From the NCBI GenBank assembly GCA_004195635.1, contig PSPT01000005.1:1-64000 (forward strand): 64,000 bases of DNA. The letters run 5' to 3'. The DNA comes from Methanobacteriota archaeon (GTDB lineage: Archaea > Thermoplasmatota > Poseidoniia > Poseidoniales > Poseidoniaceae). A model generated the notes under the pieces. That model did no database searches. It had not been told where the DNA came from and saw nothing but the letters and a program-made list of their open reading frames with translations. Made by a program: the position numbers and the translations under genes. This document shows, one piece after another, positions 45,636-57,595 of the stretch (position 1 is its first letter; each line of letters starts with the position of its first letter).

Positions 45636-46384
45636 GTGTTTTATTGCAACCTTATACTGTTGCTGTTTCAACACATAATCTGCAGCAACCGAGTCCTTGG
45701 TGGCACTGGGGACTTGCCCTTTTCATTGCAATGGTGTCTGTATTGAGTGGCTTCAATGCACTTGCCACAGGATATATTTACAAAAGTAATATCCTTGATA
45801 TGGATTTTGGCCAATTAGACCTAGGCCCCTTTCCCGAAAATGGGTCAAGCTCTGAGCAACAACAATGGAATGAAACAAATGAGGGGAATCAAGCATTAAA
45901 TGACACGCGGGGACTGATGGATGATTTAAAAGAAAGTGGTATTATTGAAATGCAGATAATCTTTGCAACAATAGGTTGCCTTTGCGGATTATTGGTCGCC
46001 GGATTATTAGCTGCAAAAATGAAATATTCTTTTCATGCAGCCGGAATTTGGGTTGGATATTCTACGATTTCAGCAATCGTATTAACTGTAATGAGTAATT
46101 CTATAATGTCTGAATTTTACCAATCACAGGAATATTACCCCGCTAACATGAATATTATTGGAATGATTGCAGGTATTGGCCAAGTTATTTTCTGTAACCT
46201 CATGTTTGCTGCAACTATTTTCTTTTGTTGGATGAATACACGGCAAGGATTAAAGCAGGTTCCTGAAAGTGGTTTTCATAATAACCCCATTGATTTTGTT
46301 ATTGTGACACCGGATATTGAGGCATCTACAGAAGCAATCCTAATTACCCCTGAAGCCCAAGCAAAAGAGCAACTCAAAAAATGA
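45608..46384 (+). CDS. Multi-pass membrane protein, unknown (start may lie downstream of the pheS overlap)
   Basis: 258-aa ORF with four hydrophobic segments. Confidence 0.65.
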   Translation: MVENATDIVGVLLQPYTVAVSTHNLQQPSPWWHWGLALFIAMVSVLSGFNALATGYIYKSNILDMDFGQLDLGPFPENGSSSEQQQWNETNEGNQALNDTRGLMDDLKESGIIEMQIIFATIGCLCGLLVAGLLAAKMKYSFHAAGIWVGYSTISAIVLTVMSNSIMSEFYQSQEYYPANMNIIGMIAGIGQVIFCNLMFAATIFFCWMNTRQGLKQVPESGFHNNPIDFVIVTPDIEASTEAILITPEAQAKEQLKK

Positions 46385-46875
46385 AAAGGTCACATTTTCT
46401 TTCTTTATCCACTCTACTTTTTGCCATCACTTCTCCTCTCCTTACCTTTCAGATGCTTAGCTTTCTAAATTATTGTGGAGAAACGGGACAAAAATTGAAT
46501 AACTTGCCCCATAGTGGCTCTCCCATGCAACCCAATACTGGGACACCACAAGTAGCACAAATCGCTCTTTCCAACATAGAGACAATTCCTGGAAGAACAA
46601 TTATTCAATCTCTCGGAGTAGTAACAGGCTCAACAGTAAGAGCAAAACATATTGGCAAAGACATTATGGCAGGATTTAAGAATATTGTAGGTGGAGAATT
46701 GAAGGGGTATACAGAATTACTACAAGAATCACGTAATGAAGCATTACAACGCCTTGTCTTAGATGCAGCACAAAGAGGAGCAAATGCTGTAGTCAATGTT
46801 AGATTTGCAACTTCAGCAATAGCGGGCGGGGCGGCAGAATTATTCGCTTATGGGACTGCAGTAATAATCCAGTGA
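46381..46875 (+). CDS. YbjQ/UPF0145-like protein with N-terminal hydrophobic segment
   Basis: 'ETIPGRTIIQSLGVVTGSTVRAKHIGKDIMAGFKNIVGGELKGYTELLQESRNEALQRLVLDAAQRGANAVVNVRF'. Confidence 0.88.
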   Translation: MKRSHFLSLSTLLFAITSPLLTFQMLSFLNYCGETGQKLNNLPHSGSPMQPNTGTPQVAQIALSNIETIPGRTIIQSLGVVTGSTVRAKHIGKDIMAGFKNIVGGELKGYTELLQESRNEALQRLVLDAAQRGANAVVNVRFATSAIAGGAAELFAYGTAVIIQ

Positions 46876-47372
46876 TTTTCATGCCTGATATAGAATACAT
46901 GTTTGTGGTAGGCATCTACTCTCTCTCACTTCTTTCGCCGATAATAATATTTTTGATTTCCTGGTTTGGTGGTAATTGGCACCAAAAGAAATTGCGATAT
47001 GATTTACTGGCGCGAGAAAAGGCAATGACTAGAGATAATGTTTCAACCTTACGAAACCCATTCCCTGGGCGTCAAGTTATTCGTTCAGACTTATTAGCAA
47101 TCAATATCGTTGCTGCTCCGTCACATTGGCAATTATTCAATGCGCGAATAAAGACTATTTTTGGTGGCAATATTAAATCTCTTGACAAGATCCTTGACTG
47201 GGGGCGCCAAGAAGCAATCCAACGCTTGCGGGAATTGGCTATCTCAAATGGATTTGATGAGGTCCTAAATTTGAGATTGGAAACTTCAACAATTCAAGCA
47301 GACCAAACTGGCAAAAGTAAAAATGCCTCAGTGGAAATACTTGCTTATGGAACTGGTGTATCTTACCAATGA
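46872..47372 (+). CDS. Divergent YbjQ/UPF0145-like protein with N-terminal TM
   Basis: 'INIVAAPSHWQLFNARIKTIFGGNIKSLDKILDWGRQEAIQRLRELAISNGFDEVLNLRLETS'; 4-bp overlap with its paralog. Confidence 0.75.
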   Translation: MIFMPDIEYMFVVGIYSLSLLSPIIIFLISWFGGNWHQKKLRYDLLAREKAMTRDNVSTLRNPFPGRQVIRSDLLAINIVAAPSHWQLFNARIKTIFGGNIKSLDKILDWGRQEAIQRLRELAISNGFDEVLNLRLETSTIQADQTGKSKNASVEILAYGTGVSYQ

Positions 47373-47452: not shown

Positions 47453-48286
47453 TTAGAGAAATTTTGAAATATCAACAACATAGCGAATCCAAATGAGACA
47501 CAAGAGGCCGAAGAAAATTGCTATCACGACCTTTGTAGGGAGGTATTTCAAACCAACTTTTGCACCTATCGAAGCACCAGCAATTGCGAATAATGCAGCG
47601 CAAGGTAGGAGGTAATAACCACCCTCGGAAATGAGGAAATCAAAGTGCTCAGCAGTTAATGCAGAACTATGAGTCAATAGAGCAATTGGTACAACTATCA
47701 TCATCATACTGAGGCTTGTCCCAATTGCCCTACGCGCAGGTACATGCGCATATTGGCGTAATACTGGGATATAAATGACACCGGCACCAATTCCCAATAC
47801 TGCTGAAAGCCCCCCTCCGATACTTGCTCCAATGCGCAATGGGATTGTTTCTACTACTTTTTCACTATCTTCCGCAGGAGTATTAATAGGTTCATTACGA
47901 AGTTTTTTCCAAGTTTTTTGGATTGACCAGGCTATCATGACAACGCTTATTGATTTGAAAATAATTCCCATATTGCTTCCCATCACAAGAAATAGCCCGA
48001 CACCGGCAAGCGCTCCTGGGATTGCCCCTAAAAGAGCGGTATTTCTCACTGACTTATCCCAATGACCCGCATTAATGTGTGTCGTGCCTGAACCAAAAGA
48101 CACTACTGCAGTAAGTAGTAGGGAGGTGATCATTAAGGGGCTTTCAATTGGCCATCCCGCAATGTAATGAAATATGGGCACAAATAATAGACCTCCCCCT
48201 AAACCTAATGGAGCGAATAAAAAACCTGTGATAAATATGAGTGCAAAAATGAGGATTAGCGTACCGAGTTCCATTTTAACTTTCAT
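47453..48286 (-). CDS. TauE/SafE-family (sulfite/organosulfonate exporter-like) permease
   Basis: 'FAPLGLGGGLLFVPIFHYIAGWPIESPLMITSLLLTAVVSFGSGTTH', 'GGGLSAVLGIGAGVIYIPVL'. Confidence 0.9.
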   Translation of the reverse strand: MKVKMELGTLILIFALIFITGFLFAPLGLGGGLLFVPIFHYIAGWPIESPLMITSLLLTAVVSFGSGTTHINAGHWDKSVRNTALLGAIPGALAGVGLFLVMGSNMGIIFKSISVVMIAWSIQKTWKKLRNEPINTPAEDSEKVVETIPLRIGASIGGGLSAVLGIGAGVIYIPVLRQYAHVPARRAIGTSLSMMMIVVPIALLTHSSALTAEHFDFLISEGGYYLLPCAALFAIAGASIGAKVGLKYLPTKVVIAIFFGLLCLIWIRYVVDISKFL

Positions 48287-51062
48287 CCTCTTTTATGTAG
48301 AAATGCTCCTTCTTTGGTTGAAGCGGGCGCTTGAACCAAAGAGGTCTGCGCTCACCGCGCGGGTGAGTCTCCTTGTCCTTAGCCCACTGATTCCACTTTT
48401 GATAGTATGCAAAAGATTTCTTCGGGTCAACCTCTATGTCTCCGTACTTTTCCCCCTCAGCAGGTAAAGATAACAGTACTTTCTGCAGCCAACAATGATG
48501 ACCACTAATTGGATCGGGTTGGACCGCATGAGTGATGTTTTGATGAACCCCTCCGTCTCTCCACCACACTCTATTTGTATCTGCATCATTAGATTCCCAT
48601 GGTTCAATTCCACTTACTGTTTCCATTCGATAAGAACCTGATTCGGTTTTTGTGATATTTACTTCATTTGTCATTAAGCGGTTTCCCTGATCTTGTTTTC
48701 TGCGCCAACGACCAATGTGGTGAGAACATCCTACAACACCTGGTTTTATTCCTTCAGTAATCCAGACCTTATCAATGAAGAAACCAATTTCAGTTTGCAC
48801 CTTTATTAAATCTCCATCGGCCACTCCCAAATTATTGGCATCAATTGGGTGCATCCAAACTGGATTGCGATGGGCTATTTCAGCGAGCCATTTTGAATTT
48901 GCAGAACGCGAGTGGATGTGCGTTGGTAGTCTGAAATTTGGTAGCAAGCAATAGGCATTTTCCTCTTCTAAAAAATCAGGGTGAATGTGACTCTTGACTC
49001 GGTAATGAGGTATTGCATGTTCCGGATAACCAAACTCAATCATCGTTTGAGAATAGAATTCCTGCTTCTTCGAGGGAGTTGGCCAACCCTCCATTTGCTT
49101 ACCATCAATAATAATTCCACCTTCCTTTACTTCATCTTCATGGCGTTTGTAAATCGCCTCATCTACTAAGAATGCGCCATGTTTTTTCATGAATTCAAGA
49201 GGACCAAGGCCTTCTAATTCTGCCTTTTCCTTCAGGCCGGGAACTCTATCAAAAATATACTGATAATACTCATCAATGTTAATTTTCTCTCCTTCACGAT
49301 AAGGTGAGATAAAGTGCTCGCGAATGCCCATTGTACCATCATCAATGCGCCATGATAATTCTATCCAAAATTCATCTTCCTCCCAAACTTGACCGGGATT
49401 TATCTCATGGGTAAATTCTACGTCCTTACCTTGACGCCGTGCATATTCTCGTAATACAGGTTGACGGAATGCTATCCATTTTCCAGCATGAGTTTCGTAC
49501 GAATTGAGATCATGCCTCTCACTTGAATGACCCATGGGCAAAACATAATCTGCGAAGAATGCGGTTTCATTCCATGTAGGAGTTAATGCAATATGGCAAC
49601 CAATTGCGTCTTCATTTTCAAACATATCAATCCAAGAAAAACCATCAGGGAATGTCCATACTGGATTGAATACTCGGCTAAAGTAAACATCCATTGCACC
49701 TCTCCCTTCCTTAACCAGATGGGGCAAAATATGACTCATTTCATAATGATTCAAAGTATATTCGGGCGGGAAATGCAATTCATTCCAACCATCAGGGCCT
49801 TCTGGAACATCAAAGAATTCAGGTTGAAATTTGTTCCAAGCACTTGGGGAAGTTCCTCCTTCAGTGCCTACAGAACCTGTCAGCACATTTAGGAAATGAA
49901 GTGTTCTTGCTGCCTGCCAGCCACCCAAATTACCGATAGCTGCCGACCTCCAAACATGGGTTGAAAGTTGACTACCGGCATCAGCAACAAGTTCGGCAAC
50001 ACGCTTTACTTGTTCAATAGGGATTTGACACTCTTCGGCAGCGAATTCATCCGAATAACACTGATATTCAGCAATTAATAGTTCAATGAATGTTTCAAAC
50101 GTCTGTGGAGTGTCAGGATGGTCTGCTTTGAGCCAATCATCCCAATTAGTCCATTTTTCCATGAATTCACGATCATATTTACCAGACTCAAGAATATGTC
50201 GGGCAATGGCCAAAAATAAGGCTGGCTCAGAGCCAGGGTAAGTTGGAACCCATTCATCTGCCATTGATGCTGTGTTAGAAAGTCTTGGATCAATTACGAT
50301 TAACTTCGCACCAGCCATCATTCCTTCCATTATTCTTTGAGCATGAGGATTGAAATAATGACCGGTCTCGAGATGCGAAGAGGTAAGAAGAATTACTTTA
50401 GCATTTGCATGGTCGGGGCTTGGCCGGTCATACTTATGCCAGATTGCATATCCTGTTCGCGCCCCCCCTGAACAAATGTTTGTATGGCTATTATGCCCAT
50501 CAACACCCCATGCTTTGAGAACTCGATTTGCATATCCTTCGTGCCCAGGACGACCTACATGGTAGACGACTTTGTCTTTTGCTCCACTCTTTAATGAGGT
50601 GCGAATTTTGGCTGCAATTTCATCAAGAGCAGTGTCCCAAGTGATTTGTTCCCACTCGCCAGACCCTCGCGGCCCTTTGCGGCGCAGAGGGTAAAGAATA
50701 CGCTCAGTATCTTTGATTTGGTTTATTGTAGCAGGGCCTTTGGCGCAATTTCTTCCTCGGCTCCCTGGATGATGTGGGTTTCCCTCAAATTTAGTGACTG
50801 TTTCTGTTTCTTTGTCCACATATGCTAATAGCCCACACGCGGATTCACAGTTAAAGCAAGTTGTTGGTACAAGAGAGTAGTTTTTCTCAATACGGTTGGG
50901 CCATGCTTGAGCATCAAATTCGATATGATTATCCCATTCACTCGGGCTTGGGAAGTTTTGCAATTCCCCATCAGCACCCTTTACCTCTATTCGATTTGAA
51001 ATCTTTGGAATAATACCAATTCCCTCGGCGAGTTTTTCAATGAATGACCTTTTTACTACCAT
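48276..51062 (-). CDS. Molybdopterin oxidoreductase catalytic subunit (SoeA/Psr/Phs-like), no evident Tat signal
   Basis: 'TTCFNCESACGLLAYV..GNPHHPGSRGRNCAKGPATINQI' 4Fe-4S motif; 'HTNICSGGARTGYAIW'; C-terminal molydopterin dinucleotide-binding 'HRNPVWMHPIDANNLGVADGDLIKVQTEIG'. Confidence 0.92.
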   Translation of the reverse strand: MVVKRSFIEKLAEGIGIIPKISNRIEVKGADGELQNFPSPSEWDNHIEFDAQAWPNRIEKNYSLVPTTCFNCESACGLLAYVDKETETVTKFEGNPHHPGSRGRNCAKGPATINQIKDTERILYPLRRKGPRGSGEWEQITWDTALDEIAAKIRTSLKSGAKDKVVYHVGRPGHEGYANRVLKAWGVDGHNSHTNICSGGARTGYAIWHKYDRPSPDHANAKVILLTSSHLETGHYFNPHAQRIMEGMMAGAKLIVIDPRLSNTASMADEWVPTYPGSEPALFLAIARHILESGKYDREFMEKWTNWDDWLKADHPDTPQTFETFIELLIAEYQCYSDEFAAEECQIPIEQVKRVAELVADAGSQLSTHVWRSAAIGNLGGWQAARTLHFLNVLTGSVGTEGGTSPSAWNKFQPEFFDVPEGPDGWNELHFPPEYTLNHYEMSHILPHLVKEGRGAMDVYFSRVFNPVWTFPDGFSWIDMFENEDAIGCHIALTPTWNETAFFADYVLPMGHSSERHDLNSYETHAGKWIAFRQPVLREYARRQGKDVEFTHEINPGQVWEEDEFWIELSWRIDDGTMGIREHFISPYREGEKINIDEYYQYIFDRVPGLKEKAELEGLGPLEFMKKHGAFLVDEAIYKRHEDEVKEGGIIIDGKQMEGWPTPSKKQEFYSQTMIEFGYPEHAIPHYRVKSHIHPDFLEEENAYCLLPNFRLPTHIHSRSANSKWLAEIAHRNPVWMHPIDANNLGVADGDLIKVQTEIGFFIDKVWITEGIKPGVVGCSHHIGRWRRKQDQGNRLMTNEVNITKTESGSYRMETVSGIEPWESNDADTNRVWWRDGGVHQNITHAVQPDPISGHHCWLQKVLLSLPAEGEKYGDIEVDPKKSFAYYQKWNQWAKDKETHPRGERRPLWFKRPLQPKKEHFYIKEDES

Positions 51063-51072
51063 CAGTTACACC

Positions 51073-52512
51073 TCACGCTAAAGTCTCCATTTGCGGATAA
51101 AGCACTACATGTTTACCGTGGAAAAATGCGACACTCAGTACGAATGCTCCAATAATAGCATTTAGTACACTGGGCATTAGTAGAGGAATCGCAACTGCTG
51201 AACCAATGGCAATTGTTTCAAGAAGAAACTTGGCTGGCAGCATCTTGTCATTGGACCAAGAACGGCCCTTTGCTTGCTGAAATAACCACGCAGTATAAAC
51301 GCCTGTTAATAGCGACAATGGAACTCCTATGTATGCCAAATATGTAAGATAATTTGTATCTAGGCCTAAGATTAATACTCCGGCACTGGCAGCCAATATC
51401 CCACTAAATCCGGCCAAAATATATGCGCCTTTTACAAGCCATGATGACCAATTTGGCCGCAACATTACGTACAAAAAGCGAGTAGGGCGGTCGAGGTCAA
51501 GAATAAGTAAAACGCCGGTAATTCCGAGGAATACAAAGCCGATTATGATAACTGCCCACCACTGAGTTTGAGTTACTTCCATCCCCATGAGCATCATCAA
51601 TGCAGCAATCAAGTATGTACCTGAGGCAATGCCTTTTGTCCATATATATGCAGAAACTTCCCAGCCCCATAGGATACCTTTACTCGGCTGGTCATATACT
51701 CGCTTTGCTGAACTCGATTGATTTGCATGCGGAGCCATTCCGGCATTTCGCTCAGCAAGTTTGTCCATCACATCATTAATTACTGCGCGGTCTCGAGGAT
51801 TAGATTCTTCAGATTTCCGCTGAAGGGCTAATTGAACAATCATTGAATGAGTATCTGCTGCACCAGATTTTTTATGAGCATATTTAGCGTAATGTCCTAC
51901 ACCTGCTGCCTGCTCAGACCACATTCCTGAACCAGTTCTCTCAGTTGCAGAAGGGTCAAGCATTACTTCACTACCCTTGATATAAAATAAATTAGGTTTG
52001 GTACCGGCTTCAGGTTTTCGTACTGTGGTTTCATTTTCAGATACCAGTTTAGAAATATTTGAGTGGGGGTCATCAAGGTCTCCAGAAATAATAGATTGTG
52101 TCGGACAGACCACAACGCATGCTGGCTCGTAAGAGTTTTCAATTCGGTGAACACAGTAATTACACTTAGCCGCAGTGCCATTATTTGGGTCGATATAAAG
52201 TGCATCATATGGGCACGCTTGCATGCAAGATTTGCAACCTATACAACGTTCATTGTCAAAATCCACAATTCCATCTTCGCGAGTAAAGAGGGCGGTGGTT
52301 GGGCAAATTGTAGTGCAGGGTGAATCCTCACAATGGTTACATCGGTGAACGCTAAATTCACGAGTTGAATTGGGGAACTCTCCTTTTTCGATATACTTCA
52401 CAAATGTTCGGTTAACCCCAATTGCCACATCATGTTCAGACTTACATGCGACTGTACAGGCATGACAACCAATACAAGTCCTATTGTCAATTACGAAGCC
52501 ATAATTTGTCAA
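51073..52512 (-). CDS. Fusion of 4Fe-4S electron-transfer subunit and NrfD/SoeC-like membrane subunit
   Basis: Four Cys clusters ('CIGCHACTVACK', 'CNHCEDSPCTTIC', 'CIGCKSCMQACP', 'CNYCVHR..ACVVVC') followed by about 200 aa of TM helices. Confidence 0.9.
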   Translation of the reverse strand: MTNYGFVIDNRTCIGCHACTVACKSEHDVAIGVNRTFVKYIEKGEFPNSTREFSVHRCNHCEDSPCTTICPTTALFTREDGIVDFDNERCIGCKSCMQACPYDALYIDPNNGTAAKCNYCVHRIENSYEPACVVVCPTQSIISGDLDDPHSNISKLVSENETTVRKPEAGTKPNLFYIKGSEVMLDPSATERTGSGMWSEQAAGVGHYAKYAHKKSGAADTHSMIVQLALQRKSEESNPRDRAVINDVMDKLAERNAGMAPHANQSSSAKRVYDQPSKGILWGWEVSAYIWTKGIASGTYLIAALMMLMGMEVTQTQWWAVIIIGFVFLGITGVLLILDLDRPTRFLYVMLRPNWSSWLVKGAYILAGFSGILAASAGVLILGLDTNYLTYLAYIGVPLSLLTGVYTAWLFQQAKGRSWSNDKMLPAKFLLETIAIGSAVAIPLLMPSVLNAIIGAFVLSVAFFHGKHVVLYPQMETLA

Positions 52513-52553
52513 AATATCACATCCAATTCTTCACAGAAATCCCCGCCTATGGG

Positions 52554-53714
52554 TTAAGCATTTTCTATGCCGCCGTGCTTGGAAGCAGCACACTCATTCT
52601 TTCCGAGATCCATAATATTCTGTTCATTCTCACATGGAGTAAGTTTGCCAAAATTTACTAGTCTAATTTGCCCATATATTTCTGGCTGATTACGCATATT
52701 GCCTTGAATATATGTGACGAAATCATCGATATTTGCGATGCTATAAATCTCTTCATTCATTGCCTTAACAGTTGCGAAATCATTCATTATTCTATATTCC
52801 GAATCAGCCTCTGCCTCCCAGTCAGTATAGTGTCCAGGCAAAACAATCAAATCGTCAGGCATTACTGAAATACGTTTGTGTAAAGTGTCGTATAGCATTT
52901 GTGCCCATTCAACTGCCATCTTTCCCAAGTCAGGTCGGCCAATGCTAACAATAAAAATCGTGTCTCCAGAAATCATATATTTTTCTCCGATGAGATAAGT
53001 CATTGAGCCGGGTGTATGACCGGGAGAATGTACACAAGAAACAACAGGACCATTCTCGGTTGAAAAATTAATTTCCTCACCATCAGTAACCGAATGGTAT
53101 TGATGAAGCGCTTCGGAGTAATCTCCATCGTGGGCAACTAATACTGCACCAGTCATTTCTACAATTTTGGGGCTTCCAGAAATATAATCTGCTTGTAAAT
53201 GAGTCTCGAGGGCATGAGTGATTATTGCACCACGTGATTCAGCAAATTGCAAGTAATAATCAACATTTCTTGAGGGGTCGAAGAGGAACATTTCCTTTCC
53301 AAAAACAAGTCCATATGAACAAGATGCCTTTCCCGGACGATTGAACTGCCAAACTTCATAATCATCGGATTCGGAATTAACTCTTTTTGAAACCAACAAA
53401 TTACCCCAGGAAATAATCCCTCCATCTAAATGGCTAACATTTTCACGACCCAGCCCTTCGAGTAAATTCGCTACGAACTCCGAAGAACCAACCTTTGCGC
53501 ATACAACTCTAACCGGCTTATCATCGGGTACTTGAGCAACCATTTCCTCTGGCTCTTCAATGAAATCGAAATATGGAATATTCATCATCATTACTTCATT
53601 TGGACCTTCAATGGAGAAACGCTTGTGATCCTCTTCATTTCTAACATCAAGCAGGAGGAAATCCTCCTTCTCCTCAATTGCAGAATATAGTTCATGTGCA
53701 GTAAAAATCGTCAT
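52554..53714 (-). CDS. Rhodanese - persulfide dioxygenase (ETHE1-like MBL) fusion
   Basis: N-term rhodanese 'FLLLDVRNEEDHKRFSIEG..VVCAKVGSSEF..HLDGGIISWGN'; MBL 'THALETHLQADYISG', 'SPGHTPGSMTYLI', 'ISGDTIFIVSIGRPDL', 'VLPGHYTDW'. Confidence 0.9.
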   Translation of the reverse strand: MTIFTAHELYSAIEEKEDFLLLDVRNEEDHKRFSIEGPNEVMMMNIPYFDFIEEPEEMVAQVPDDKPVRVVCAKVGSSEFVANLLEGLGRENVSHLDGGIISWGNLLVSKRVNSESDDYEVWQFNRPGKASCSYGLVFGKEMFLFDPSRNVDYYLQFAESRGAIITHALETHLQADYISGSPKIVEMTGAVLVAHDGDYSEALHQYHSVTDGEEINFSTENGPVVSCVHSPGHTPGSMTYLIGEKYMISGDTIFIVSIGRPDLGKMAVEWAQMLYDTLHKRISVMPDDLIVLPGHYTDWEAEADSEYRIMNDFATVKAMNEEIYSIANIDDFVTYIQGNMRNQPEIYGQIRLVNFGKLTPCENEQNIMDLGKNECAASKHGGIENA

Positions 53715-53723
53715 ATTACCAAC

Positions 53724-54242
53724 TCAAATAAATAACTGAATATCTGCCTCTGAAGCAAAGTCAAGGAAGGTTGCCGCCCCACCGATTGTTACTCCTTCAA
53801 TGAAATCCTCTTTTTCAAATCCAAATACATCCATAGTCATTTGGCAGCCAATCATCTCAACACCTAATTCCAAACACATTTCTCGTAATTCAGTAACTGT
53901 CGCAACACCCTTATTTTTAAATGTCTTCTTCATTAAACTAGTTGCAACTGTTTCAAACCCTGGTAAATTTCCACTTACCATATTTGGTATTGGCCAATCA
54001 AAACCTTGGAAGAACTTAGGGCCAAAGGGCATTTTCATAGGCATTGCTGGATTGCTTGAAGGTGATACTTTGGCCTTAATTTTATGGCTCAATAGCGGAA
54101 GTCCGTAAAAGGTAAAGAAAATCTTCACCTCCATATCCATTGCTGCAGCTGTTGATGCCAAAATGAATGGAGGGTATGCCCAATCTAAAGTTCCTTGGCT
54201 GGCAATTATTGCCATCTTTTTCTTTTCGCTCATATTAAGCAC
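53724..54242 (-). CDS. DsrE2-like DsrE/F-family sulfur-transfer protein
   Basis: 'KMAIIASQGTLDWAYPPFILASTAAAMDMEVKIFFTFYGL' and 'LGVEMIGCQMTMDVFGFEKEDFIEGVTIGGAATFLDFA'. Confidence 0.88.
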   Translation of the reverse strand: MLNMSEKKKMAIIASQGTLDWAYPPFILASTAAAMDMEVKIFFTFYGLPLLSHKIKAKVSPSSNPAMPMKMPFGPKFFQGFDWPIPNMVSGNLPGFETVATSLMKKTFKNKGVATVTELREMCLELGVEMIGCQMTMDVFGFEKEDFIEGVTIGGAATFLDFASEADIQLFI

Positions 54243-54468
54243 CTCGTTTTACATAGAAAACATATTTGTCACCTTCTTCACAATTGGAGAGGATTTCATG
54301 CCCCACTTTTCCTGCCCATGCAGGTAAATCATTACAGGCACCAGGGTCTGTTGTGATTACACGTAATATTTTGCCGGCATCCATTTTGTCAATCTTTAGT
54401 TTTGTCTTTAGTACTGGCATCGGACAATTTAATCCGCTACAATCTAATTCATCATCATGTTCTTTCAT
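54235..54468 (-). CDS. tusA: TusA/SirA-like sulfur carrier
   Basis: 'LDCSGLNCPMPVLKTKLKIDKMDAGKILRVITTDPGACNDLPAW'. Confidence 0.93.
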   Translation of the reverse strand: MKEHDDELDCSGLNCPMPVLKTKLKIDKMDAGKILRVITTDPGACNDLPAWAGKVGHEILSNCEEGDKYVFYVKRGA

Positions 54469-54494
54469 ATTTCATTCCCCCTATTTCTCAAACT

Positions 54495-54860
54495 TCAATC
54501 CAAATAAGATAACGCATCACATTCCATGTTTACTTGAGTCTCCCGTAAACAAGTTAATAATTTGAAAATAAGCGGATTGGCAACGAAGTACATCATTTTG
54601 TTACCATCCCTGTGCCTGTCGACTAAGCCTCTCTTCCTCATCTGCATTAAATGCTGACTTGTAATGGGTTGTGAAAGCCCCATGTATTCCTGTATTGAAG
54701 AAACACAATGCTCACCGGTTTGAAGTAATTCAACAATTCGAAGGCGATCGGGGTGGCCAAGCATTTTGATTATGCCCGCTGCTTTTTGCAAGAAAGCCGG
54801 GTCGAGTTTGACCGATTCGGAAATTGCTGCTCCTATCATAGTCCCGCCTATGTTCGGCAC
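54495..54860 (-). CDS. ArsR-family HTH transcriptional regulator
   Basis: 'GHPDRLRIVELLQTGEHCVSSIQEYMGLSQPITSQHLMQMRKRGLVDRHRDGNKMMYFV'. Confidence 0.93.
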   Translation of the reverse strand: MPNIGGTMIGAAISESVKLDPAFLQKAAGIIKMLGHPDRLRIVELLQTGEHCVSSIQEYMGLSQPITSQHLMQMRKRGLVDRHRDGNKMMYFVANPLIFKLLTCLRETQVNMECDALSYLD

Positions 54861-54871
54861 AAAGAGCCAAA

Positions 54872-54894
54872 CATATATAGGTTCTCATATATAG
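54872..54894. promoter_or_regulatory. Candidate operator/TATA region: catatatag direct repeat upstream of the ArsR gene
   Basis: catatatag-gttct-catatatag immediately upstream of the ArsR ORF start. Confidence 0.5.
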
Positions 54895-55006
54895 TGAAAA
54901 TAATATACACTGCTGAGAATACGGGTTAGAACCGCTGACCACATTAACGCTCGAAAGCGTACTGCAATTCGAAATCAATATTTACAATTGGAATCTATTC
55001 TGTGGA

Positions 55007-57595
55007 TTAAGCAGTGAGTTCTTCGGCAGATTTGACATTTATTCCGCCCCATTTAGTTAGCATTGCAGGTAATATGAATACACAAGCGGCTTGGGCAAGA
55101 ATTACCATTGCAATCATTACTTTTCCAAACATTGCAAACATCGGCATGACTGAAAGTAAAAGGACACTGAATCCAACAATATCTGTAAAGCCACTGGCAA
55201 TTAATGCAGAACCAGTGTGGCCCATCATCCCCTCAGTCCACCTCTCCATGCCCGCATCAGGGCGTCTGTTCTTCTGCTCGCGAATGGCCTGAGTGACATG
55301 AATTGCATAATCCAAACCTAACCCTATTGCAAGACTTGCAACTTGAAGAGTAACTAAATTAAGACTTACTCCGGCAATATTCATTCCCGCATATAGCCAA
55401 AGTGAAACTGCAATTACTGGCGAGATAGTCAATAGACTTAGCCTAACATCTCTAAATACGATAAATAGGATTACAAAACAAGCAACAACGGCCAAATAAA
55501 TGCTGCTTTGGAAGGAAGTTGTCATCGCATTTACATATACATATCTTTGAAATGACTGCCCGGTAAGTATTGCTTCTTGGTCACCGTTTAGAATCACTTC
55601 TTGGTCAATTAGTTCTTCAACTTGAGCTTTGTAATCTGTCATCCAAGGCCAATCATGAGCTATTCCAACTTTCATCGGCAATATCATCATTTCCAATTCA
55701 CCAGTTTCGGAATTAATCTTTGACAGTTCGGCCACCCCGCCCGGCGTTACCATTGAACGAGGGTCGGCGGGGTCATAGGTACCATTTCTTTGAATATCCA
55801 GTAACATTAATTGGATATCAGAGGTTTGACTTGGCAAGCCGGTATCATTATTGATTGATTGAGATTCAAATCCAGGTCCACCTTGCTTAACTAACTGATT
55901 TTGCCAAACTAACATATCTACGATTGAATCCTTGCCATAAGTCCAGTTATTTTCATCCATTTTCTTCATGAATTGTTGAATGCTTTCTAGAGTCTCATAT
56001 TCCGCTAAATCGATACCGTTGCCATTGACAAAAATATACCCTGGTTCTCCCTTATCTTCAATCTCAAATGTCAACTCAGTCACTTCCAAAGATCGCATCA
56101 TTCTTGAATCGTTGTCAACATAATCCTTTGCATTGAAATCGGTATCTGGTTGACCTATTGCCAACGCACTTCCAGTTAATAGAAGTAAAATAAGAATAAA
56201 TGGCATGGGCTTACGCACTTGAATGCCGGCCAATTTGCGCATTTTGGCGGCAAACTTTTCCTGTGGGTCACCCACCTTTACCTTATTTCCAGAACGCAAC
56301 ACCACAGTGAATATCCCAAGTAATAAGTATGCTTCAAAGATAAAAATTACAGCTAATACCCCCCATTCTGCCAAATCGGGAATTGATGAAAAAGCAGCAG
56401 TTCCAAAAGCAATCATTGTTGTAATAGTTGCTAGTCCCAATGCGGGTCGCAATTCCTTAATGCTCATCCATGCAGCGGCTAACCTTGCTTCCTCGTCACC
56501 ACCATTTTTGTTTGCCATTGCCCGCCAACGATGCAAACCATGAAATGAAAAATCAACACCCAAGGCTAACAATAGAATTGGTAGCATTGAGGATATTTGC
56601 GTTTGAGGGTAACCAAGCCATGCTTGGGTTCCATACATCCAGCCCATCAATAATCCAAGACCAGCAGATGCGGCTGCAACGTCCCTAATATCTCGGAAGA
56701 ATACCCCTAAAATTATCACCATCAGAATGAAACTTATGCCAATAAGAGGCAGCGTTTGTGCCACTTCGTCATTAATTTCTGTGTCTATGGCTAAGTAGGA
56801 CCATACATGAACTTCCTCGCCTGTGTTAGTCATAGGACGAGAGTAAATATCATCAATCATTATTTCCCATTCTTCGAAGAAGGGTTTTGTATCTTCAGGA
56901 ATCAATGAGTACTCGCCTTCTGGTCCAACCAAACTTGACATGTCGGCCTCGCCGAAAATAAAACTGGCACTGCCAGTCCATACCCCTTGGCCATCTTTCT
57001 CCAGGCCACTTATTGATGCCGCATATGGATGTGAACCGTCGGGCATTTCAATTGAGAAAAGTCTAGTTAATGCATCATTAATTTCCTCGGAGGATGCATT
57101 CTCAAAAGTTGAACCATTCCAGTCAATTTGCTGACTAACAGGTGATTGTTGATTCATTATGGAGCGGACGGTATTTGCAAAAGCCCAAGGTCCAGTGACA
57201 TTCATTTGAACCTGCCAAGAATATCTCGTTGCAAAATGCTCAGTTATCTCTTCATTTGACATTACTTCATCATATCGTGCCACTACTTCGTTCAATACCG
57301 AATGGGCTAGAATATTTCCGCCCTCGTTCTCCCATGAAGGGCCAATGAATAATACTACATCGCGCATTTCAGATGGCATTTCAGCCTCAACTATCATTGC
57401 TGCTTCCCATGTAGGGTCTCCCTCAAGAGAGAAAGCCGTCCTACCATTTCCACTTGGTCCGAATTCAAAACCGGAGAGCAGGAAAATAGTGACAAAGGCA
57501 AATGCCGCTATGGTGATTCGACGTCGTTTGCGCAAATCATGCAATGCACTTGATGCCTCAATTTGCTCCTTGGCCATGAACCGAGGGGCAGGCAT
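55007..57595 (-). CDS. RND-superfamily (MMPL/SSD-like) exporter
   Basis: 862 aa, two repeats of TM clusters; 'LGVDFSFHGLHRWR', 'LGLDYAIHVTQAIREQ'. Confidence 0.9.
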   Translation of the reverse strand: MPAPRFMAKEQIEASSALHDLRKRRRITIAAFAFVTIFLLSGFEFGPSGNGRTAFSLEGDPTWEAAMIVEAEMPSEMRDVVLFIGPSWENEGGNILAHSVLNEVVARYDEVMSNEEITEHFATRYSWQVQMNVTGPWAFANTVRSIMNQQSPVSQQIDWNGSTFENASSEEINDALTRLFSIEMPDGSHPYAASISGLEKDGQGVWTGSASFIFGEADMSSLVGPEGEYSLIPEDTKPFFEEWEIMIDDIYSRPMTNTGEEVHVWSYLAIDTEINDEVAQTLPLIGISFILMVIILGVFFRDIRDVAAASAGLGLLMGWMYGTQAWLGYPQTQISSMLPILLLALGVDFSFHGLHRWRAMANKNGGDEEARLAAAWMSIKELRPALGLATITTMIAFGTAAFSSIPDLAEWGVLAVIFIFEAYLLLGIFTVVLRSGNKVKVGDPQEKFAAKMRKLAGIQVRKPMPFILILLLLTGSALAIGQPDTDFNAKDYVDNDSRMMRSLEVTELTFEIEDKGEPGYIFVNGNGIDLAEYETLESIQQFMKKMDENNWTYGKDSIVDMLVWQNQLVKQGGPGFESQSINNDTGLPSQTSDIQLMLLDIQRNGTYDPADPRSMVTPGGVAELSKINSETGELEMMILPMKVGIAHDWPWMTDYKAQVEELIDQEVILNGDQEAILTGQSFQRYVYVNAMTTSFQSSIYLAVVACFVILFIVFRDVRLSLLTISPVIAVSLWLYAGMNIAGVSLNLVTLQVASLAIGLGLDYAIHVTQAIREQKNRRPDAGMERWTEGMMGHTGSALIASGFTDIVGFSVLLLSVMPMFAMFGKVMIAMVILAQAACVFILPAMLTKWGGINVKSAEELTA

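Follow-up and report, generated by a model that had tools for sequence, protein, structure and literature searches.

The window analysed here, which is the whole stretch of the first 64,000 nucleotides of contig PSPT01000005.1 from an archaeon of the order Poseidoniales, carries between positions 47453 and 54860 seven open reading frames, all on the minus strand, that resemble an operon for sulfur oxidation. In the order of transcription they encode an ArsR-family helix-turn-helix regulator (54495..54860; HTH_5 2e-14, HTH_metalloreg over its cut-off), which is also the first gene of the operon in relatives; the sulfur carriers TusA (54235..54468; PF01206 9e-25, 87 bits) and DsrE2 (53724..54242; DrsE_2 175 bits, NF047629 SulfCarrDsrE2 211.8 bits with a cut-off of 210); a fusion of rhodanese with an ETHE1-like persulfide dioxygenase (PDO; 52554..53714; PF00581 Rhodanese and PF00753 Lactamase_B); a PsrB-like subunit for four [4Fe-4S] clusters fused to a shortened NrfD anchor (FeS-NrfD; 51073..52512; Fer4_11 and NrfD in one protein); a SoeA-like catalytic subunit of a molybdenum-bis(pyranopterin guanine dinucleotide) (Mo-bisPGD) oxidoreductase (48276..51062; Molybdopterin, Molydop_binding and Molybdop_Fe4S4); and a TauE/SafE-family exporter, a candidate sulfite exporter (47453..48286; PF01925 2.4e-26, 93 bits). 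The preliminary description of this DNA had proposed a compact same-strand operon of these seven genes, and the reading frames, their spacing and every domain, each above its Pfam or NCBIfam cut-off, bear this out. The intergenic gaps (+26, -8, +9, +41, +10 and -11 bp) are so small that the genes very likely form one transcript, and chance does not account for a gene order that roughly a dozen genomes of the order share.

The host genome (1.75 Mb, 80% complete) encodes a TATA-binding protein, which marks the host as archaeal, and a COX1 heme-copper oxidase, which makes it probably aerobic. Its relatives belong to one order with two main families and have genomes of 1.2-2.3 Mb. In our view the operon probably serves cytoplasmic oxidation of sulfane sulfur, with a SoeABC-like sulfite:quinone oxidoreductase standing behind interchangeable sulfite-making cassettes under the control of ArsR. 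From gene content, gene order, motifs, fold, co-occurrence and cassette exchange, all of which were read from the sequence, we infer every reaction, the direction of flow, the link to quinone and the regulation described below.

The molybdenum complex and the persulfide dioxygenase

The Mo subunit is a protein of 928 aa and the sole PF00384 enzyme found in the host genome. Four cysteines of an N-terminal [4Fe-4S] cluster, FS0 (C69/C72/C76/C106), and C197 are all invariant in the alignment. C197 aligns with a cysteine of PsrA where the Mo ligand is expected and is probably that ligand, so that the subunit has the cofactor arrangement of the SoeABC catalytic subunit. No twin-arginine translocation (TAT) motif occurs in 24 N-termini of the Mo proteins of relatives. 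The subunit is therefore taken to be cytoplasmic, as in SoeABC, and does not share the TAT export of PsrABC and PhsABC. The preliminary description would have been refuted by a firm affinity to enzymes of unrelated substrates such as tetrathionate or arsenate reductases, but the protein lies far below the cut-offs of both families: it scores 98 bits with TtrA (cut-off 1750) and 117 bits with ArrA (cut-off 1600). On the basis of the NCBIfam cut-offs, tetrathionate, arsenate, thiosulfate and DMSO reductase identities were all rejected. The Mo genes of some relatives (L016, L017, L022 and L027) contain one in-frame TAG or TGA and are either pseudogenes or affected by sequencing errors.

The partner protein has four groups of cluster cysteines, 16 residues in all and each invariant in the alignment, which corresponds to the four [4Fe-4S] clusters of SoeABC, and its Foldseek matches are 2vpw_B and 2vpw_C. 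However, instead of a separate NrfD-type anchor with eight helices, the anchor is fused to the FeS domain and its model has six membrane helices (284-308, 315-340, 358-382, 387-413, 425-445 and 447-464), and for this reason we call the complex SoeABC-like rather than SoeABC. Complete Poseidoniia copies of FeS-NrfD measure 468-482 aa as against about 500-560 in bacteria, the C-terminal part of the bacterial proteins being missing. According to published work, NrfD binds quinone within helices 1-4, and helices 5-8 hold part of a proposed path for ions (PMC8076601). With helices 7-8 lost, the modelled anchor may thus have retained quinone reduction while ion pumping may be weakened.

PDB matches of the PDO fusion include ETHE1 (4chl) and BpPRF (5ve3). 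All 13/13 Poseidoniia proteins keep C72 of the rhodanese domain and the triad H172/H233/D251, which we take to correspond to the iron ligands of ETHE1, and all of them have other residues for the histidines expected at the second site (HLQADY). This combination points to a mononuclear iron persulfide dioxygenase with a predicted 2-His-1-Asp triad in a metallo-β-lactamase (MBL) fold, and not to a two-metal hydrolase. The preliminary description had suggested a route from glutathione persulfide or persulfide. The glutathione part is not supported: no GCS2-type gamma-glutamylcysteine ligase was found in the 80%-complete host genome by a search that was positive in Haloferax. The enzyme is therefore unlikely to use glutathione persulfide, and a persulfide bound to a carrier or to CoA is the likelier substrate.

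The two putative carriers have retained their cysteines. Cys15 of TusA is present in 32/32 aligned homologues, and Cys133 and Cys123 of DsrE2 in 29/30 and 25/30, respectively; translation of DsrE2 may begin at an inner ATG. A second TusA-family gene lies elsewhere in the host genome (G000:C23:5792-5995). In one relative, G034 (L158 17167-17408), DsrE2 and TusA match in fragments only, owing to decay or assembly error, while PDO, FeS-NrfD and Mo genes look intact.

Exchange of cassettes and distribution of the operon

Evidence on the substrate of the Mo complex comes from relatives G046, G117 and G147, the last possibly a member of Marine Group III. PDO is absent from all three, and the same position is occupied by a complete set of heterodisulfide reductase-like (sHdr) genes, accompanied by those for LbpA, EtfAB and an EMO-like protein. 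The upstream part reads ArsR-TusA-DsrE2 in G046 and G117 and TusA-DsrE2 in G147, where the order around ArsR is less clear. The cassette itself consists of a DsrE-like gene, a GcvH/LbpA-like gene, HdrC1, HdrB1, HdrA, a hypothetical gene, an HdrC2B2 fusion, EtfB, EtfA and an EMO-type gene for a membrane FeS protein, followed by FeS-NrfD and Mo. Genes for LipS1, LipS2, LplAB and a LipT-like flavoprotein adjoin the cluster in G117 and G147; none was seen in the G046 stretch examined. HdrC1, HdrB1, thioredoxin, LbpA (in G046) and LipS1/S2/LplAB (in G147) were tested with hidden Markov models, and the other genes were assigned by tblastn or by reading of reading frames. With HdrC1-B1-A-Hyp-HdrC2B2, LbpA and LipS1/S2-LplAB, these relatives possess the hallmarks of an sHdr system, whereas a search of the 80%-complete host genome with the hypothetical protein from the cluster was negative.

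Within a single genus, G078 (PDO) and G046 (sHdr) are 89-91% identical at the nucleotide level in the flanks, 85% in ArsR, 96.6% in FeS-NrfD and 95.0% in Mo. Homology ends at the start of FeS-NrfD, and the inner cassette alone differs. Compared with G044, from another genus, the G078 cassette is 87% identical in TusA, 97% in DsrE2, 89.5% in PDO and 93% in TauE. A tree of the Mo genes of 25 Poseidoniia requires at least 7 switches between cassette states, and on it the family of the window does not form a clade (p-AU 1e-5, approximately unbiased test). As the Mo complex remains unchanged behind PDO and sHdr, both of which yield sulfite, it most simply takes sulfite.

Of 145 surveyed genomes of the order, 42 carry the Mo gene. 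PDO occurs in 15 genomes, 14 of them with Mo (Fisher p about 6e-8), and Mo accompanies DsrE2 in 15 of 16 (p about 1e-8), although these p-values overstate the strength of association because genomes were treated as independent. The lone exception without Mo, G035, is a fragment at a contig end. Among 389 genomes sampled from the phylum, those with the Mo gene all belong to the same class. A TauE-like gene adjoins Mo in most relatives, but outside the genus it is only 30-44% identical, and a second TauE adjoins ArsR in L046, L054, L062 and L160. The neighbours, whose lack of conservation in relatives would have refuted the preliminary description, are conserved. Molybdenum cofactor synthesis was tried as a marker of the Mo enzyme and proved uninformative (MoaC in 136/145 genomes). 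One or two genes for DUF2061 membrane proteins adjoin Mo or TauE in L047, L052, L155 and L158.

Beyond the order, a scan of named genomes gave at least 580 relatives of the Mo subunit, and the best 80 loci, from Actinomycetota, Chloroflexota, Bacteroidota, Acidobacteriota and others, were used for bacterial neighbourhood counts. Their neighbours include PDO in 28, the sulfate permease SulP in 18, TusA in 14, DsrE2 in 12, TauE in 5 and sulfide:quinone oxidoreductase (SQR) in 4. Unbiased clustering of genes within 7 kb, with one cluster of apparent antisense frames set aside, returned FeS-NrfD, PDO, SulP, ArsR, TauE, DsrE2, Mrp and TusA as the commonest families. PDO reaches 7.7 per 100 kb at 1-3 kb from Mo vs 0.3 at 6-10 kb, and SulP 4.1 per 100 kb within 1 kb vs 0.3 at 6-10 kb; TusA, DsrE2, TauE, SQR and YeeE likewise become rarer with distance. 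Since a sulfate permease adjoins the enzyme, sulfate fits as the product of the complex. The Mo genes of Poseidoniia group as a single clade in the midst of copies from Bacteroidota, KSB1, Calditrichota and haloarchaea and are about 61-63% identical to those of Bacteroidota, which suggests that the gene moved between domains. The nesting hints at a bacterial origin of the archaeal gene, but the outgroups are long-branched and do not form one clade, and the transfer may have run either way. In actinobacteria and one haloarchaeon (L037, L039, L066, L076 and L079) a gene for an Mrp/NBP35 FeS-assembly ATPase lies directly downstream of Mo.

Proposed route, related systems and alternative readings

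The arrangement suggests the following route. TusA and DsrE2 would carry persulfide sulfur to the fusion protein, where it would pass from the rhodanese part to the ETHE1-like iron dioxygenase and be converted to sulfite in an O2-dependent reaction. The Mo enzyme and FeS-NrfD would then oxidise sulfite to sulfate at the inner side of the membrane and pass the two electrons to the quinone pool of the aerobic respiratory chain, while TauE would release surplus sulfite and ArsR would switch the operon according to the load of reduced sulfur. Relatives in which an sHdr cassette stands in the place of the dioxygenase, while both regulator and Mo complex are kept, would obtain the same product, sulfite, without O2. 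The preliminary description had outlined a relay of sulfane sulfur to a persulfide dioxygenase, a SoeABC-like complex in the cytoplasm and an exporter for sulfite; synteny, co-occurrence and cassette exchange are consistent with this outline.

Each of these parts has known counterparts. With SoeABC of Allochromatium vinosum and Aquifex aeolicus the complex has in common the Mo-bisPGD subunit with its N-terminal [4Fe-4S], the four-cluster FeS subunit, an NrfD-type anchor, the lack of TAT export and sulfur-oxidation neighbours; it differs in the fusion of FeS and NrfD, in having six NrfD helices rather than eight and in its archaeal host. The bSreA/SoeA lineage has been described with 5 archaeal members (PMC10100899). 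In Sulfobacillus, a SoeABC-like operon (TPY_0113-0115) is strongly induced on elemental sulfur (PMC5114278), and the genome also encodes sHdr, TusA and rhodanese; sHdr cluster II of that organism includes EtfAB and a membrane HdrC-like protein (PMC4378227). However, SoeB and SoeC are separate genes there, and the operon has no linkage to a PDO fusion. The sHdr-LbpA system of sulfur oxidation, with its own sLpl(AB)-LipS1/S2-LipT lipoylation genes (PMC6067878, PMC10332631), has matching genes directly before the same Mo complex in G046, G117 and G147, but was not found in the host genome, which has the PDO cassette. Like ETHE1-type PDOs and the BpPRF fusion, the PDO combines rhodanese and MBL domains in one chain with the iron triad, whereas its rhodanese domain is N-terminal, its second metal-site histidine is lost and glutathione is an improbable acceptor. 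The same parts occur on plasmid pRHL3 of Rhodococcus jostii RHA1 as a DsrE2-TusA-FeSNrfD-Mo-Mrp cluster with PDO and ArsR (Mo 52% identical), but there PDO is divergent, Mrp/NBP35 is found in place of TauE, and DUF202 genes are present.

Several observations weigh against sulfite oxidation as proposed. About 26 of the 42 Mo genomes lack PDO, DsrE2 and sHdr, FeS-NrfD being present where the locus was read, which implies another source of sulfite there or another substrate. The NrfD anchor is short by about two helices, the PDO lies far below the NCBIfam cut-off for bifunctional Blh (32 vs 625) and deviates from ETHE1 in its HLQADY motif, and a search of the 80%-complete host genome for SQR, made without a positive control, gave no match. 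Moreover, the likeness to SoeABC is one of architecture and neighbours, and the substrate is read from gene context: weaker plasmid matches obtained in a search for a verified SoeA proved to be other or undefined enzymes, so that the Mo tree contains no such sequence.

Some of these features would suit other functions. If the complex were a PsrABC/PhsABC-like reductase, it would use quinol to reduce sulfur, polysulfide or thiosulfate delivered by the carriers. The predicted structure of the Mo subunit (pLDDT 79, pTM 0.83) is indeed nearest to PsrA polysulfide reductase of T. thermophilus (2vpw_A; Z 26.3, rmsd 3.0 over 667 residues), its partner domains match PsrB and PsrC, and PhsA tops its NCBIfam scores at 193 bits. 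However, the PhsA cut-off of 694 is not reached, and arsenate reductase ArrA and acetylene hydratase are almost equal in fold (Z 25.3 and 25.2). In addition, the catalytic subunits of Psr and Phs are periplasmic (PMC10100899), unlike the TAT-less subunit here, the recurrent neighbours of the complex are an O2-dependent dioxygenase, sulfate permeases and sHdr, and the host, with COX1, is probably aerobic. We consider a reductase quite improbable.

A more serious contender, which we nevertheless consider unlikely, is that the operon serves mainly detoxification and export: carriers and dioxygenase would turn toxic persulfide into sulfite for export by TauE, leaving only the remainder to be oxidised by the Mo enzyme without real energy gain. 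PDO reactions yield no conserved energy (PMC12345210), TauE closes the operon and recurs beside ArsR in the four loci mentioned, and the helices lost from NrfD are part of the proposed ion path (PMC8076601). Yet no part is as well conserved as the Mo complex, which persists while PDO and TauE change, and EtfAB and the EMO-like protein of the sHdr variants suggest electron harvest. It is also conceivable, but improbable, that the Mo enzyme acts on another sulfur species, e.g., a carrier-bound thiosulfonate, or on sulfite from a source such as sulfonate breakdown, PDO and sHdr being merely frequent partners. This would account for the many Mo genomes that have neither cassette and for several loci that hold only FeSNrfD-Mo with TauE or DUF2061. 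However, TauE in many bare loci and SulP in 18 bacterial loci fit sulfite in and sulfate out, as in the preferred route of sulfite oxidation.

That route may have a wider meaning. Marine Group II (MGII) archaea, which are uncultured and among the most abundant archaeal groups of the ocean, are usually described as photo- or chemoheterotrophs, and in the collection of papers that we searched for Poseidoniales together with sulfur oxidation, SoeABC or rhodanese, none describes this operon. If it does end in a sulfite-to-sulfate complex, many MGII would be able to draw electrons from reduced sulfur or to detoxify it. Tentatively, we see in it a plug-in operon of Poseidoniia, in which a fixed regulator and a sulfite:quinone oxidoreductase bracket PDO or sHdr cassettes that move between genera by recombination, and which could be an unrecognised lithoheterotrophic energy source. 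The parts and their mechanisms are known singly; the operon is set apart by its anchor, fused and with six helices, by its host, a marine archaeon, and by the way in which PDO and sHdr replace each other naturally before one Mo complex. This replacement argues cleanly, on genetic grounds, for the substrate of a large and so far uncharacterised clade of molybdoenzymes in Actinomycetota, Chloroflexota, Bacteroidota, haloarchaea and others, and makes that substrate directly testable.

Regulator, leader and flanking genes

Translation of ArsR probably starts at ATG 54839 rather than at GTG 54860, since its closest relative begins there. The preliminary description had seen in ArsR a redox- or sulfur-responsive regulator, and a two-cysteine sulfane sensor is upheld in part: C104 is kept across Poseidoniia copies, but the second cysteine of the pair found in SoxR, sHdrR and BigR is not, C52 occurring only in the genus of the window and a few others. 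The protein also remains below the NCBIfam BigR cut-off (47.8 vs 155). By direct reading of the sequence, the leader before ArsR (54861..55006, minus strand) is a candidate promoter/operator region. It contains an imperfect inverted repeat, ATATATGAGAACCTATATAT (approximately 54874-54893), as a possible operator; scans for promoters and terminators gave site numbers no higher than in shuffled sequences.

Elsewhere in the window, G+C rises to 0.52 between 62001 and 64000 compared with about 0.42 in the remainder, and an Rfam search of 60-64 kb found no RNA. Immediately upstream of the operon and on the same strand lies a gene for an MMPL/HAE3-type resistance-nodulation-division (RND) transporter (55007-57595). 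On the other side, a pair of YbjQ-family (putative heavy-metal-binding) genes at 46381-47372 adjoins TauE, convergent with the operon, and such a pair also adjoins TauE in G095 (L043).

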